A stretch of DNA of 56,208 nt from Myxococcaceae bacterium. Its GTDB lineage: Bacteria > Myxococcota > Myxococcia > Myxococcales > Myxococcaceae. The notes beneath the pieces were generated by a model. The model did no database searches. It saw only the letters and a list, made by a program, of their open reading frames with translations, and had not been told where the DNA came from. The translations under genes and the position numbers were made by a program. Positions 32,452 through 37,934 of this stretch are shown one piece after another (within the stretch, counting starts at the first letter, position 1; each line of letters begins with the position of its first letter). The stretch covers positions 1 to 56,208 of the forward strand of contig JAFGNZ010000003.1 of assembly GCA_016926755.1 (NCBI GenBank). The letters are read 5' to 3'.

Positions 32452-33885
32452 TCATGCCGCCTGCGCCTTGCCGACGGCGGCCAGCAGCGCGTCGATGGAC
32501 TTGCGCGCGTCTCCGAAGAGCATGCGCGTGTTGTCCAGCAGGAACAGTGGGTTCTCCACGCCGGCGTACCCCGCCGCCATGCCGCGCTTGAGCACCACCA
32601 CCAGCTTGGACTTCCACACCTCCAGCACGGGCATCCCGTAGATCGGGCTGGAGGGATCATCCAGCGCGCCCGGGTTGACGATGTCGTTGGCGCCGATGAC
32701 GAGCACCACGTCCGTGCTCGCGAAGTCGTGGTTGATGTGCTCCATCTCCTGCACGATGTCGTAAGGCACGCCGGCCTCGGCGAGCAGTACGTTCATGTGC
32801 CCCGGGAGCCGGCCGGCCACCGGGTGGATCGCGAAGCGGACGGTGACGCCCTTCTCGCGCAGCCCACGGGTGAGATCCTCCACCGCGTTCTGCGCGCGCG
32901 CCACCGCCATGCCGTAGCCCGGCACGATGATGACGTTCCTGGCCGAGCGCAGCCGCGCGGCCGTCTCGTCCGCGGAGATCTCCCGCACCTCGCCGGAGCG
33001 CGGCGCCTCGGAGGTCTTCACGTCGCCGGTGCCGAAGCCGCCGAAGACGACGTTGAGGATGGAGCGGTTCATCGCGCGGCACATGATGATGGACAGGATC
33101 GCGCCGCTGGCGCCCACCAGCGCCCCGGTGACGATGAGCAGATCGTTGGAGAGCACGAAGCCCGCCGCCGCCGCCGCCCACCCCGAGTAGCTGTTGAGCA
33201 GCGACACCACCACCGGCATGTCCGCGCCGCCAATGGCCATCACCAGGTGGATGCCCAGCAGGCCCGCCAGCACCGTCATCACCAGCAGCCACACCAACCC
33301 CTCGCCGGGCCCGCTGGTGGCCACGAAGGGCACCGCCAGGCCGACGATCCCCGCGGCGATGCCCGCGTTGATCAGGTGACGGCCCGGCAGCAGCAGCGGC
33401 TTGCCGGAGAGGCTCCCGCGCAGCTTCGCCCAGGCGATGATGGAGCCGGTGAAGGTGAGCGCGCCCACGGCCACTCCCACCCAGATCTCCACCATGGCCA
33501 CCGTGTGGGCCGCGCCCGTCAGCTCATGCGAGCCCGCGCGGGGCGCCAGGTAGGAGGAGACGCCCACCAGCACGGCGGCCAGCCCCACGAAGCTGTGGAG
33601 GATGGCGACCAGCTCCGGCATGCCCGTCATCTCCACCCGCCGAGCGAGCACGCCGCCGATGACCGAGCCGACGAGCACCGAGCCGATGAGCAGCGGCAGC
33701 CCGGCGCCGATCGTGCCCCCGTTGGAGATCAGCCAGGTGACGCCGGCCACGCCCACGGCCAGCGCCATGCCGAGCATGCCGTACAGGTTGCCGCGCGCCG
33801 CGGTCTCCTGCTTGGAGAGGCCGCCGAGGCTGCGGATGAAGAGCACGCCCGACAGGAGGTAGGCGATGGAGGTGACGCCGTTCAT
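32452..33885 (-). CDS. pntB: NAD(P) transhydrogenase beta subunit
   Basis: 477 residues, the usual length. It pairs with PntA to move hydride from NADH to NADP+ while protons flow inward. Many membrane helices (about eight to nine) fill the first 280 residues. The C-terminal NADP-binding domain (about 300-477) has [46 protein letters not shown] and [16 protein letters not shown]. The ATG at 33885 has GGAGGTGG upstream and overlaps the pntA stop (TGA at 33884-33882). Confidence 0.95.
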
Positions 33886-35450
33886 GCGCCACCTCCGGGG
33901 TTCTTTCGGAACATCTTGAGCATGCGTTGGGTGACCAGGAAGCCGCCGGCGATGTTGATGGCGGCCACGAGCACGGCGATCGCGCCCAGGATGGAGGCCA
34001 GATCGATGTCGGTGCCTATCTGCAGCATGCCGCCGATGATGATGATGCCGCTGATCGCGTTGGTGACGCTCATCAGCGGCGTGTGCAGGGCGGGCGAGAC
34101 GCTCCAGATCACCTGCCAGCCGACGAAGCAGGCCAGGATGAAGACGGTGAAGTGCTTGAGGAAGTCCTCGGGGGCGAAGCGCCCCAGGATGAACAGGAGG
34201 CCGATGATCAGCAGGCCACCGATGGTCGTCCCCCAGGCGTGACGCGAGGGCGCCATGATGGCGTGCTGCTGAGGCCGGGCGTCCGCGGGCGGCGGCTTCG
34301 GGGCCGGCTTGGGCGGCGCGGCGGGGGTGGGATCCTTGCGCGGCGGCGGAGGCAGCACCTCGCCTCCGTGGGTGACGAGCGCCGGCCGCACCACGTCATT
34401 CTCCAGATCGACGCGGAACTTCTCGCCGGCCCCCATCTCGGTGATCAGGTGGACGAGGTTGTTGGCGAAGAACCGGCTGGCGGTGCCGGCCATGCGGCTG
34501 GCCAGATCGGTGAAGCCGATGATCTGCACCCCGTTGAACTCGATGACTTCGCCCGGCTTGCACAGCTCGCAGTTGCCGCCCTGCTCGGCGGCCATGTCCA
34601 CGATGATGGAGCCGGGCTTGAGCTTCTCCACCACGTCCCGCGGCAGGAGGATGGGCGCGCGCGTGCCGGGCACCAGCGCGGTGGTGATGAGGATGTCCAC
34701 CTCGGCGGCCTGCTTGCGGAACAGGGCCATCTCCGCCTCGATGAACTCCTTGCTCATCGTCTTGGCGTAGCCGCCCCCACCGTCACCGCTCTCCTGGATG
34801 TCCACCTGGAGGAAGGCGGCGCCGAGGCTCTCCACCTGCTCACGCGCGGCGGCGCGCACGTCGAACGCGCGCACCTCCGCGCCCAGCGATCGGGCCGCGG
34901 CGATGGCGGCCAGCCCCGCGACGCCCGCGCCGATGATGAGCACGCGGGCCGGTGGGGTGGCGCCCGCGGCGGTGATCTGCGGACCGAAGAAGCCCTGGTA
35001 GTGCTGCGCGGCCTCGATGACGGCGCGATAGCCGGCCAGGTTCGCCATGGAGCTGAGCACGTCCATCTTCTGGGCGCGCGTCACCCGGGGGATGCGCTCC
35101 AGCGCGATGGCCGACAGCTTCATCGACTGGAGGACCGGGGGCAGCTCCGGGTTGCGCTCGGGCTGGAGCAGCGAGATGAGCGTGGTGCCAGGGCGCGCCC
35201 GCGAGGCCTCATCCGGGGTGGGCGGCCGGACCTTCACGACGACGTCGGCGGCCTTCCAGAGGGCGTCGGCCGTGTCAGCGAGGGTGGCGCCCGCCTCGAC
35301 GTATGCGTCATCGAGGATGCCGGAGTCGGCGCCAGCGCCCTTCTCGACCTGGACCTCGAAGCCCAGCTCGCGAAGCTTGCGGATGGACTCGGGGGTGGCG
35401 GCGACACGCCGCTCACCTGGGAGGATCTCTCGTGGAACTCCAATACGAAT
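33882..35450 (-). CDS. pntA: NAD(P) transhydrogenase alpha subunit, probable ATT start
   Basis: About 522 residues. The N-terminal NAD-binding domain resembles alanine dehydrogenase ([47 protein letters not shown]), a Pro-rich linker follows, then about four membrane helices, matching a fused alpha1-alpha2 PntA. The start is odd: the natural first residues fall at ATT (35450-35448), with AAGGAGG ending 6 bases upstream, the best ribosome site nearby. No ATG or GTG lies upstream in frame; TTG codons further upstream (to 35534) would add a basic, non-family tail. ATT is a rare but known start codon (as in infC). Confidence 0.9.
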
Positions 35451-35463
35451 TGCCGGCCTCCTT
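35448..35463 (-). promoter_or_regulatory. Ribosome site and ATT start of pntA
   Basis: Reading the minus strand, AAGGAGG covers 35463-35457, a 6-base spacer follows, and ATT covers 35450-35448. The strength of the Shine-Dalgarno match and the family N-terminus beginning exactly there argue for ATT as the initiator. The upstream TTGs have no comparable site. Confidence 0.6.
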
Positions 35464-35699
35464 GCCGAGGGGTGCGCGGAAGATAGCCGCAAAGGGCGGC
35501 AACCCCTACGAGAGAACAACCCTACGGGTTCCAACGAGCCCGGCTGCTCCTGGGGCTGGCACCCCGCCAGGTGGCGCGGGGGAGCGTCCGGTGGGCCTGA
35601 GGGGTTGGGAGGAGGCGGGCAGGCGCTCCTTATGTATGGAGCGGGCGGGCGGTGATTGCATCAGCCCCCCGGAGCACTAAGCTGCACCGCTGGGAAGTC

Positions 35700-37934
35700 A
35701 TGGACATCGTCAAGGATACCGCCCTGGAAGTGGGCTACCTGGTCTGGCAGGTGCGTCCGCCGAGACCTTCATTGACGGTCGTCGCCAAGGCCACGTTCGC
35801 GCTCGTCCCGGGAGGGACCTGCGCACTGGCGGAGGAGCAGCACCCGGTCAGCGGGCCTGTCTTCCTTGAAGACGATCCGCTGAAGAGCATGCGCCTGGAC
35901 ACGGATCTCGCCGTCTGGAAGATCCGAGGGGAGTGCTTCCTCGCGGGGACGTGCTACCCGCCCGGCGGAAAGCCCACGCAGACCTCCGCGGTGTCCTTCC
36001 AGGTGGGCAAGGTGTCCAAGGCGCTGGCCATCTTCGGGGACCGCACCTGGGGGAGCCTGGGCGTGCTGAGCGCGCCCAAGCCCTTCACCTCCATGCCCCT
36101 GCACTACGAGCGCAGCTTCGGCGGGCCGAAGAACGACGCCAACCCGCTGGGCAGCCCGGTCCCCAACATCGAGGATCCGCGCGAGCTCATCACCTCGCCG
36201 CGCTCACGCCCGAAGCCGGCCGGCGCCTTCCCCATCCCTCCGGACTGGAAGAGTCGGATCAAGCGGGCGGGCCGCTATGACAAGAAGTGGCTCACCCAGC
36301 GCTGGCCCTACTTCCCCGAGGACTTCGACGGGAGCTTCTTCAACGCCGCCCCCGAGGATCAGTGGATCGAGGGCTTCTGGAGGGGAGACGAGGAGCTCGT
36401 CCTTCAGAACCTTCACCCTCAACACCTGACGCTGCGCACGCGGCTGCCCGGCCTGAGCGCCCGGGCCTTCCTGGTGGAGAAGGGCGCCGGGTTCCGTGAG
36501 GTCCCCCTGCGCCTGGACACGATCACGGTGGACGCGGACGCGGGCCTCGCCCTGGTGCTCTGGCGCGGCATGGTCGAGGTGAAGACGGAGTCCCTGGACG
36601 AGGTGGACTTCCTCTACCTGGCGCAGGAGCCGCTGGGCGCGCCCCTCGCCCAGGAGGCCCACCAGGCCCGCTTCGAGCAGAAGCTGGCGGAGCGGGCGAA
36701 GGAGGACGAGGACTTCGAGCCCGAGGCCCCTCCGCCCTCGCCCCCCGCCGTGGCCGCCGCGCCCCCGCCGCAGGCAGCGCCCGCCACCCTCGATCCCGCG
36801 GAGCTCGAGGCGAAGCTGAGGAAGCTGATCAATCCCCCGCCACCGAAGAAGGTGGATCCCAAGGCCATCCCTCCCGCGGACGAGAGCGCCGAGAAGCTGC
36901 GGGCGGCCTTCGCGGCGGTGGGGCTGGCGAACAGCAAGGAAGTCGAGGCGTTCCTCGCGGAGCTCGCGGCCGAGGAGACCACCCAGATCGTGCGCCACCT
37001 GGGGCTGGAGGAGCCTCGTGAGCGGCTGTTGAAGCGCTTGAAGGCGCGGCAGCCCGTGGCGGGCGAGGACTGGAGCGGCGCCGATCTCTCGGGGCTGGAT
37101 CTGCGCCGAGTCGATCTGACGGGGGCGATCCTCCAGGGGTGCTCGCTGCGTGAGGCGAAGCTGGATGAGGCGAAGCTGGAGGGCGCCGTCCTCGCTGGCG
37201 CGGATCTGTCACGGGCGAGCTTGCGTGGGGCCTGCCTCGATGGCGCCGATCTCACCCAGGCGCGCGCCACCTCCGCGCACTTCGAGGAGGCGAGCCTCGA
37301 GGATGCCACCCTGAGCGGGGGGGACTTCTCCGGGGCCTCCTTCCAGAAGGCGAAGTGCGCGCGCGCGCAGCTCGTCGAGGCGCGCCTGCCCAAGGTGGAC
37401 TTGAGGGAGGCCTGCCTCGACGAGGCGGATCTCTCGGGCGCCCTGCTGGAGGAGGCTCGGCTCGACGGGGCGAGCCTGAAGGACGCGGATCTGGCGGGGG
37501 CGGATGCCTCTCGCGCCAGCTTCGACGGCGCCAACCTGACCCTGCTCCGGGCCTCACCGGGGGTGCGCATGGCCCGGGCGTCCTTCAAGCGCGTTCAAGC
37601 GGCGAAGTCCCGCTGGGGTGGGGCGCTCCTGGACGAGGCGGACTTCAGCTTCTCCGAGCTGGAGCGGGCGGACTTCAGCGGCGCCTCGCTGGTGAAGGCC
37701 CGCCTCAATGGGTGCAACGTGCCGCACGCCCGGTTCGCCAGCGCCCGGCTGGTGGGCGCGTCGATGCTCAAGGCCAACGTCTTCGAGGGGCTCTTCGAGG
37801 CCGCGGATCTGTCCCACGCCGATCTGCGAGGCGCCAACCTCTTTGGCGCCGAGTTCTGGAAGGCGCAGACGTCCTCCACGCGGCTGGAGCTGGCCATCCT
37901 CACCCGCACCAAGCTGGCGGACCGTGCCCCATGA
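35700..37934 (+). CDS. DUF2169 domain fused to pentapeptide repeats (T6SS accessory)
   Basis: 744 residues. The first 300 are DUF2169 (VVAKATFALVPGG, LRVSFEVGKV-like SFQVGKVSKAL, MPLHYERSFGGPKNDANPLG, NIEDP), a domain found beside VgrG and PAAR genes in type VI secretion clusters. A Pro/Glu-rich linker follows. From about residue 455 on, pentapeptide repeats of A(D/N)LxG/R type (SGADLSGLDLRRVDLTGAIL, and onward) form a right-handed beta-helix. It probably helps load or fold the spike-associated effector; that is inference from gene context. The ATG at 35700 is used; upstream DNA holds the gap to pntA. The stop overlaps the next gene (ATGA). Confidence 0.88.
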   Translation: MDIVKDTALEVGYLVWQVRPPRPSLTVVAKATFALVPGGTCALAEEQHPVSGPVFLEDDPLKSMRLDTDLAVWKIRGECFLAGTCYPPGGKPTQTSAVSFQVGKVSKALAIFGDRTWGSLGVLSAPKPFTSMPLHYERSFGGPKNDANPLGSPVPNIEDPRELITSPRSRPKPAGAFPIPPDWKSRIKRAGRYDKKWLTQRWPYFPEDFDGSFFNAAPEDQWIEGFWRGDEELVLQNLHPQHLTLRTRLPGLSARAFLVEKGAGFREVPLRLDTITVDADAGLALVLWRGMVEVKTESLDEVDFLYLAQEPLGAPLAQEAHQARFEQKLAERAKEDEDFEPEAPPPSPPAVAAAPPPQAAPATLDPAELEAKLRKLINPPPPKKVDPKAIPPADESAEKLRAAFAAVGLANSKEVEAFLAELAAEETTQIVRHLGLEEPRERLLKRLKARQPVAGEDWSGADLSGLDLRRVDLTGAILQGCSLREAKLDEAKLEGAVLAGADLSRASLRGACLDGADLTQARATSAHFEEASLEDATLSGGDFSGASFQKAKCARAQLVEARLPKVDLREACLDEADLSGALLEEARLDGASLKDADLAGADASRASFDGANLTLLRASPGVRMARASFKRVQAAKSRWGGALLDEADFSFSELERADFSGASLVKARLNGCNVPHARFASARLVGASMLKANVFEGLFEAADLSHADLRGANLFGAEFWKAQTSSTRLELAILTRTKLADRAP

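Follow-up and report, generated by a model that had tools for sequence, protein, structure and literature searches.

A probable, rare AUU start codon at pntA of a Hyalangium-like myxobacterium suggests that translation is kept low on purpose and may be regulated

Where does translation of pntA begin when no ATG or GTG stands at the head of the gene? The question arises in a window of 56,208 nt (the whole stretch of DNA that was analysed; contig JAFGNZ010000003.1 of assembly GCA_016926755.1, Myxococcaceae bacterium), in which the N-terminus of the PntA family falls at a non-NTG codon, ATT, behind a Shine-Dalgarno (SD) sequence. We conclude that pntA of this Hyalangium-like myxobacterium very probably starts at AUU, by an SD-driven, inefficient initiation that would limit PntAB and would be sensitive to the initiation factor IF3.

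The start region of pntA

The following features, all on the minus strand, are referred to below (window coordinates).

32452..33885, minus strand: pntB, with its own GGAGG-6 nt-ATG; the ATG overlaps the TGA of pntA (ATGA)
33882..35450, minus strand: pntA, fused alpha1+alpha2, 522 codons plus TGA (family profiles, 1x13_A alignment)
35448..35450, minus strand: assigned ATT start codon of pntA (ATT in 11 of 12 loci without a nearby canonical start)
35457..35463, minus strand: Shine-Dalgarno sequence AAGGAGG, with a 6-nt spacer (35451-35456) before the ATT
35480..35485, minus strand: TATCTT, putative -10 box, 29 nt before the ATT (promoter scan, shuffle P 0.33)
35486..35500, minus strand: inverted repeat GCCGC-5 nt-GCGGC, directly before the -10 box (read by eye)
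35490..35492, minus strand: in-frame TTG at -42, rejected as start (frame reading)
35517..35519, minus strand: in-frame TTG at -69, rejected as start (frame reading)
35532..35534, minus strand: in-frame TTG at -84, rejected as start, with AGGAG 12 nt before it; the TTG from which the preliminary description numbered its residues

The gene encodes a fused-form Re/Si-specific NAD(P)+ transhydrogenase alpha subunit, part of a membrane enzyme that produces NADPH. Its product matches NF006942 (685 bits, cut-off 383) and TIGR00561 (644 bits, cut-off 444) at whole length, in both cases over residues 2-517, and contains the Pfam domains AlaDh_PNT_N, AlaDh_PNT_C and PNTB_4TM. Directly downstream lies pntB, whose product scores 632 bits against Pfam PNTB and 627.5 against the NCBIfam beta equivalog, below the cut-off of 689. 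With an identical SD core, identical spacing and an ordinary ATG, pntB provides a built-in contrast to pntA. A second transhydrogenase of the source genome, of the split type, also starts at ATG. The divergent neighbour at window 35652-37934 encodes a DUF2169 domain and pentapeptide repeats.

The minus strand reads ...ctcggcAAGGAGGccggcaATTcgtattggagttcca..., that is AAGGAGG-CCGGCA-ATT, and thus has the AAGGAGG six bases before the ATT, as the preliminary description had it (SD 35463-35457, spacer 35456-35451, ATT 35450-35448). The predicted duplex with the 3' end of 16S rRNA has an energy of -11.2 kcal/mol; of 8700 random positions within the loci, 27 have an equally strong one (the 16S sequence used for all duplex energies is an assumed one). 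Read from the ATT, the protein would begin MRIGVPRE, with (f)Met as residue 1, and the R at residue 2 lines up with the R that opens RIGIPRE in chain 1x13_A, which we take to be the E. coli protein with a tag. This alignment, together with the PntA family scores, confirms the earlier placement of the family N-terminus at the ATT, a non-NTG codon behind an SD. Upstream, the frame runs without a stop for 210 nt, as far as a TGA, and the only canonical codons within it are the TTGs at -42, -69 and -84. The preliminary description was right that no in-frame ATG or GTG precedes the ATT and that the ATT is residue 29 when counted from the -84 TTG. As for the ribosome sites that it found wanting at the TTGs, none of the three has an SD core at a distance of 5-9 nt, but an AGGAG precedes the -84 TTG by 12 nt. 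Downstream, no canonical codon occurs before a GTG at +213, which already falls within the conserved domain of the N-terminus.

The leader carries further candidate signals. The putative -10 box is aligned as TATCTT in two relatives (L008 and L009) and as TATCGT in a third (L010). It lies 28-29 nt before the ATT in L007-L009, a spacing that leaves room for an SD; in L010 the scan ranked a different site higher. Taken alone, the box of the window is weak; if real, it would have the transcript begin only after the in-frame TTGs and so exclude them. The inverted repeat directly before it is kept in L008 and L009 and altered in L010. A block GGGTTGTTCT...GTAGGGG is found further upstream, at window 35503-35522. 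Repeat and block are largely conserved in four relatives and may be operator or activator sites. The four Hyalangium-group loci differ by 1-nt indels in the leader close to the start, which argues that the leader is non-coding and holds no conserved upstream reading frame. Single-sequence folds, computed without a control, draw the SD into small stems at several of the ATT/ATC loci described below, which number 12.

The start codon in fused-PntA relatives

We compared 29 fused-PntA loci of Myxococcota. This set leaves out two loci with start sequences already represented (L037, as L008; L038, as L013), distant fused loci (L024, L121-L125 and L127; 53-57% identity) and gene fragments in three genomes (G007, G018, G030); L040, labelled only 'Proteobacteria' in its record, was placed by the tree. 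In 12 of the 29 loci the 9 nt that precede the family N-terminus contain no canonical codon, and codon 1 is ATT in 11 of these (L007-L010, L013, L014, L018, L019, L039, L040, L041) and ATC in L020. ATT and SD are identical in the four assemblies of the Hyalangium group (our own included), and seven more distant Myxococcota loci also have ATT. An SD-like stretch is present in all 12 (duplex -5.8 to -11.6, median -10.7), the weakest, that of L018 at -5.8, being at a level reached by 1442 of 8700 random positions. Four of the 12 contain no in-frame ATG, GTG or TTG at all between the preceding stop and the ATT, and their next canonical codons downstream are at +213 (L009), +210 (L013), +90 (L014) and +75 (L019). 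In L009, which belongs to the same genus as the source, an in-frame TAG lies 9 nt upstream of the ATT. A canonical upstream alternative is thus lacking altogether in four of the 12; the other eight have canonical codons at a greater distance upstream, among them the pntA locus of the window with its three TTGs, which have no well-spaced SD.

The remaining 17 loci have their start one to three codons further upstream, at ATG in three and at GTG in 14. Their SD duplexes are mostly weak, with a median of -3.6 versus -10.7 for the ATT/ATC loci (P 0.0004); 4 of 17 reach at least the strength of -6.3, and three of these at least that of -10.0. Among seven more distant fused loci of Myxococcota, residue 1 is ATG in five and GTG in one, and one has an upstream GTG. 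ATT, ATC or ATA at the aligned codon was found in none of 12 other loci of the order (L025-L036, called split-type by match length and relatedness; L025 aligned badly) and in none of 75 further loci, mostly from other phyla (L042-L116), the aligned codon in both checks being extrapolated where the match began later.

Codon usage indicates what the ATT is kept for. Inside the 12 ATT/ATC genes, isoleucine is encoded by ATT 24 times, by ATC 316 times and by ATA three times (343 codons), and at codon 1 ATT is found in 8 of 9 cases when the Hyalangium group is counted once (binomial P 5e-9). Where the aligned codon is an internal isoleucine behind an ATG or GTG, it is ATC in five loci, ATA in one and ATT in none of the six (Fisher P 0.0004, two lineages being multiply sampled in this set). 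These P values, like that of the SD comparison, are optimistic, because the 12 loci were chosen by their lack of a nearby canonical start and the lineages are related. Since internal isoleucine is rarely ATT, the codon appears to be kept as a start codon and not as isoleucine.

A protein tree of 31 rows, in which L044 and L114 (both ATG) serve as outgroup only, requires a minimum of three changes of start state. With canonical outgroups, the simplest history is a single early gain, at the root of a 28-row clade, and two losses; the fork at that root is weakly supported (85/52). In the first loss, an ATG lying two codons before the old start took over in the sister group (L011, L012, L119) of the Hyalangium lineage, and the old codon persists there as an internal isoleucine (ATC/ATA) at residue 3. 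In the second, a GTG took over in a 13-row clade (support 100/97). Replaced in two sub-clades, the AUU start is evidently dispensable.

The GTG loci have a promoter-like arrangement of their own. In 13 of 14 (L015-L017, L021, L042, L120, L218-L224; the exception is L022) the best sigma70-like match within the 80 nt scanned ends 6-8 nt before the GTG, a position at which such a match occurs in none of the three ATG loci and none of the 12 ATT/ATC loci. A TTGNNN with a 17-nt spacer is found in 9 of the 14. The scoring used an assumed consensus, and the shuffle P of the individual GTG loci ranges from 0.01 to 0.84. These 13 relatives look leaderless. Leaderless GTG may be a simple default, since starts that lack an SD may be common in the source genome: only 149 of 725 surveyed ORFs have an SD core beside a canonical start by a strict criterion.

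The source genome and the rival explanations

The survey covered 725 ORFs in 1,187,331 of the 9,592,223 bases of the source genome (the window and 79 further stretches; L138, which lies within the window, was left out) and scored each ATT close to an ORF start for an SD at a distance of 5-9 nt. Two of 119 ATT codons qualified (16.8 per 1000), compared with a mean of 16.7 per 1000 for an SD before any non-start codon; in these 725 ORFs (1.19 Mb) there is no enrichment of SD and ATT over background. The two cases are pntA and one copy of infC. Because the combination occurs at background rate, the source genome alone suggests but does not prove an ATT start, and the proof comes from the comparison of relatives. 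The genome has two infC copies, both with ATC at the place of the start, behind GGAGG or AAGGAG. They lie at C295:24973 (L117) and C342:5619 (L118), and in the latter the ATC is followed by ATT, behind AAGGAG. Among 57 tRNA matches there are two initiator tRNA genes, both CAU; across the loci covering these matches, the two are identical and the only tRNAs that combine a GGG/CCC anticodon stem with an anticodon ending in AT. A short contig carries an array of 23 tRNA genes (G000:C231:8300-10700, L255), including tRNA-Ile(GAU) and tRNA-Met(CAU), which is possibly of mobile origin.

Could one of the upstream TTGs be the true start, with the ATT an internal isoleucine and the SD match due to chance? 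The 210-nt open frame does hold three TTGs, TTG is a canonical start, an AGGAG precedes the -84 TTG by 12 nt, and the background rate of SD and ATT elsewhere in the genome leaves room for coincidence. Yet in L009 the TAG 9 nt upstream closes the frame, and L009, L013, L014 and L019 have no canonical start to offer; close relatives differ by 1-nt leader indels; the ATT is fixed although internal isoleucine is ∼ 92% ATC (316 of 343); and the putative -10 box, weak as it is alone, stands after the TTGs and ahead of the ATT. On the strength of the stop-bounded relatives, the codon usage and the leader indels we reject a TTG start, which we consider improbable. An error of sequencing or assembly that turned ATG into ATT, named in the preliminary description as what would undo its assignment, is conceivable in a draft of 409 contigs; however, ATT stands at the same place in L008, L009 and L010 and in seven more distant loci, all from other genomes. 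This repetition in other assemblies excludes the error in practice, and we give it next to no weight. The comparison with relatives thus lends strong support to the earlier proposal of ATT as the pntA start.

If the start is AUU, how it is read and what it does may still be explained differently. The idea that this lineage has a special initiator tRNA for AUU finds no support beyond the Ile(GAU) tRNA of the 23-gene array on contig C231. That tRNA lacks the GGG/CCC stem, and the tRNAs with an initiator stem are both CAU; AUU as a normal start should moreover be widespread, of which the 725-ORF survey shows no sign. With two CAU initiator genes as the only ones among 57 tRNA matches, an altered initiator tRNA is rejected as exceedingly improbable. 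A rival of a different order, and one we hold to be quite possible, is that AUU sets only a low, constant level of PntAB, without a regulated response to IF3. According to PMC13009471, the AUU of cvfC1 in Staphylococcus aureus has no medium-dependent effect, which speaks for this rival. Most of the replacements in relatives have a poor SD and could also keep the yield low. E. coli pcnB is reportedly 'translationally limited' by its AUU start, to go by the title of a 2002 report by Binns and Masters. Against a merely constant level speaks a title of La Teana from 1993, in which AUU translation is said to be subject to repression by IF3, and because of this some IF3 sensitivity is to be expected at pntA.

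Proposed limited translation of PntAB and its possible control by IF3

For the AUU start of pntA we propose the following mechanism. The strong SD (AAGGAGG, 6-nt spacing) would hold the 30S subunit at the AUU, where the ordinary initiator tRNA (CAU) would mispair at the third base; because of this mispairing fMet would still be residue 1 and initiation would be weak, the strong SD compensating for the mispaired codon. The AUU would thereby cap synthesis of the PntAB transhydrogenase, with pntB, which overlaps pntA by ATGA, controlled through it. IF3 would discriminate against the AUU and render PntAB IF3-sensitive, as for infC, so that PntAB would be held low or tuned by its weak start. Among fused PntA genes of a deep clade in Myxococcota the AUU start is probably the ancestral state, and its presumed retention by selection suggests that it has a use. 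The tie to regulation drawn in the preliminary description, as in infC, is one that we likewise infer, the IF3 link coming from precedent.

A non-canonical start of infC is conserved widely. Like pntA, infC has an AUN start behind a strong SD that is conserved over large distances, whereas the conservation in pntA is confined, among the loci sampled, to one clade of Myxococcota; and since pntA does not encode IF3, it lacks the autoregulatory loop of infC. To our knowledge few genes other than infC have been reported with an AUU start. E. coli pcnB is, like pntA, a chromosomal non-infC gene with this start, and the limited translation described for pcnB would apply to pntA too; the two differ in gene and function, and pntA is followed by pntB through an ATGA overlap. 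In the open-access literature we found AUU starts reported for other genes among the matches listed and no report of one for pntA; nor was there anything, by title, on leaderless genes or the infC start of Myxococcus.

Two reports give the infC start as AUU in E. coli, ATC in Streptomyces and AUA in S. aureus (PMC5472188, PMC13009471). As the former describes it, Streptomyces sigR has a GTC start behind an extensive SD, and its repression by IF3 was tested (PMC5472188). The similarities to pntA are several: a non-canonical start, an extensive SD, a redox-related function, an overlapping ATGA partner downstream and upstream canonical codons that mislead annotation; the start of pntA is ATT, however, not GTC. 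In S. aureus, cvfC1 (AUU) and ccpN (AUA) likewise combine a strong extended SD with a non-canonical start, both conserved among relatives, and the yield is reported as ∼ 10% of that of AUG in poor medium (PMC13009471). These are other genes in another phylum, and their yield was measured, whereas pntA is known from its sequence. Borrelia pncA (bbe22) is described as having an AUU start that annotation missed, with a protein structure that supports the longer N-terminus (PMC13398362); it too is a metabolic, NAD-related enzyme, although the genes are unrelated. The kind of start is thus already known (infC, pcnB, sigR, cvfC1, ccpN), and what pntA adds is deep conservation.

We further speculate, as an outside possibility, that pntAB of Myxococcota is an IF3-controlled operon in which control is selected while its mechanism turns over, SD and AUU serving in the ancestral and Hyalangium lineages and leaderless GUG in the 13-row sub-clade. 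Both AUU starts and leaderless starts have been reported to be repressible by IF3, and the reports on leaderless mRNAs conflict. According to one review, raised IF3 inhibits some leaderless mRNAs, low IF3 enhances leaderless mRNAs, and IF3 is needed under some conditions (PMC9031893). Given this review and the precedent for AUU, both designs are possibly IF3-sensitive. If so bold a reading were true, NADPH supply would be tied to the IF3-to-ribosome ratio. Against it speaks the possibility, mentioned above, that leaderless GTG is a simple default in these genomes.

Starts of this kind readily escape correct annotation, as happened with sigR and infC in Streptomyces (PMC5472188). That a metabolic operon has retained AUU and a strong SD so deep into a phylum suggests control by weak starts to be older and wider than annotated. 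In Myxococcus xanthus, IF3 carries a tail needed for development, according to PMC2129111. With the AUU of pntA it could readily be tested whether an NADPH-producing enzyme has its level set by IF3 in organisms in which IF3 is linked to development.
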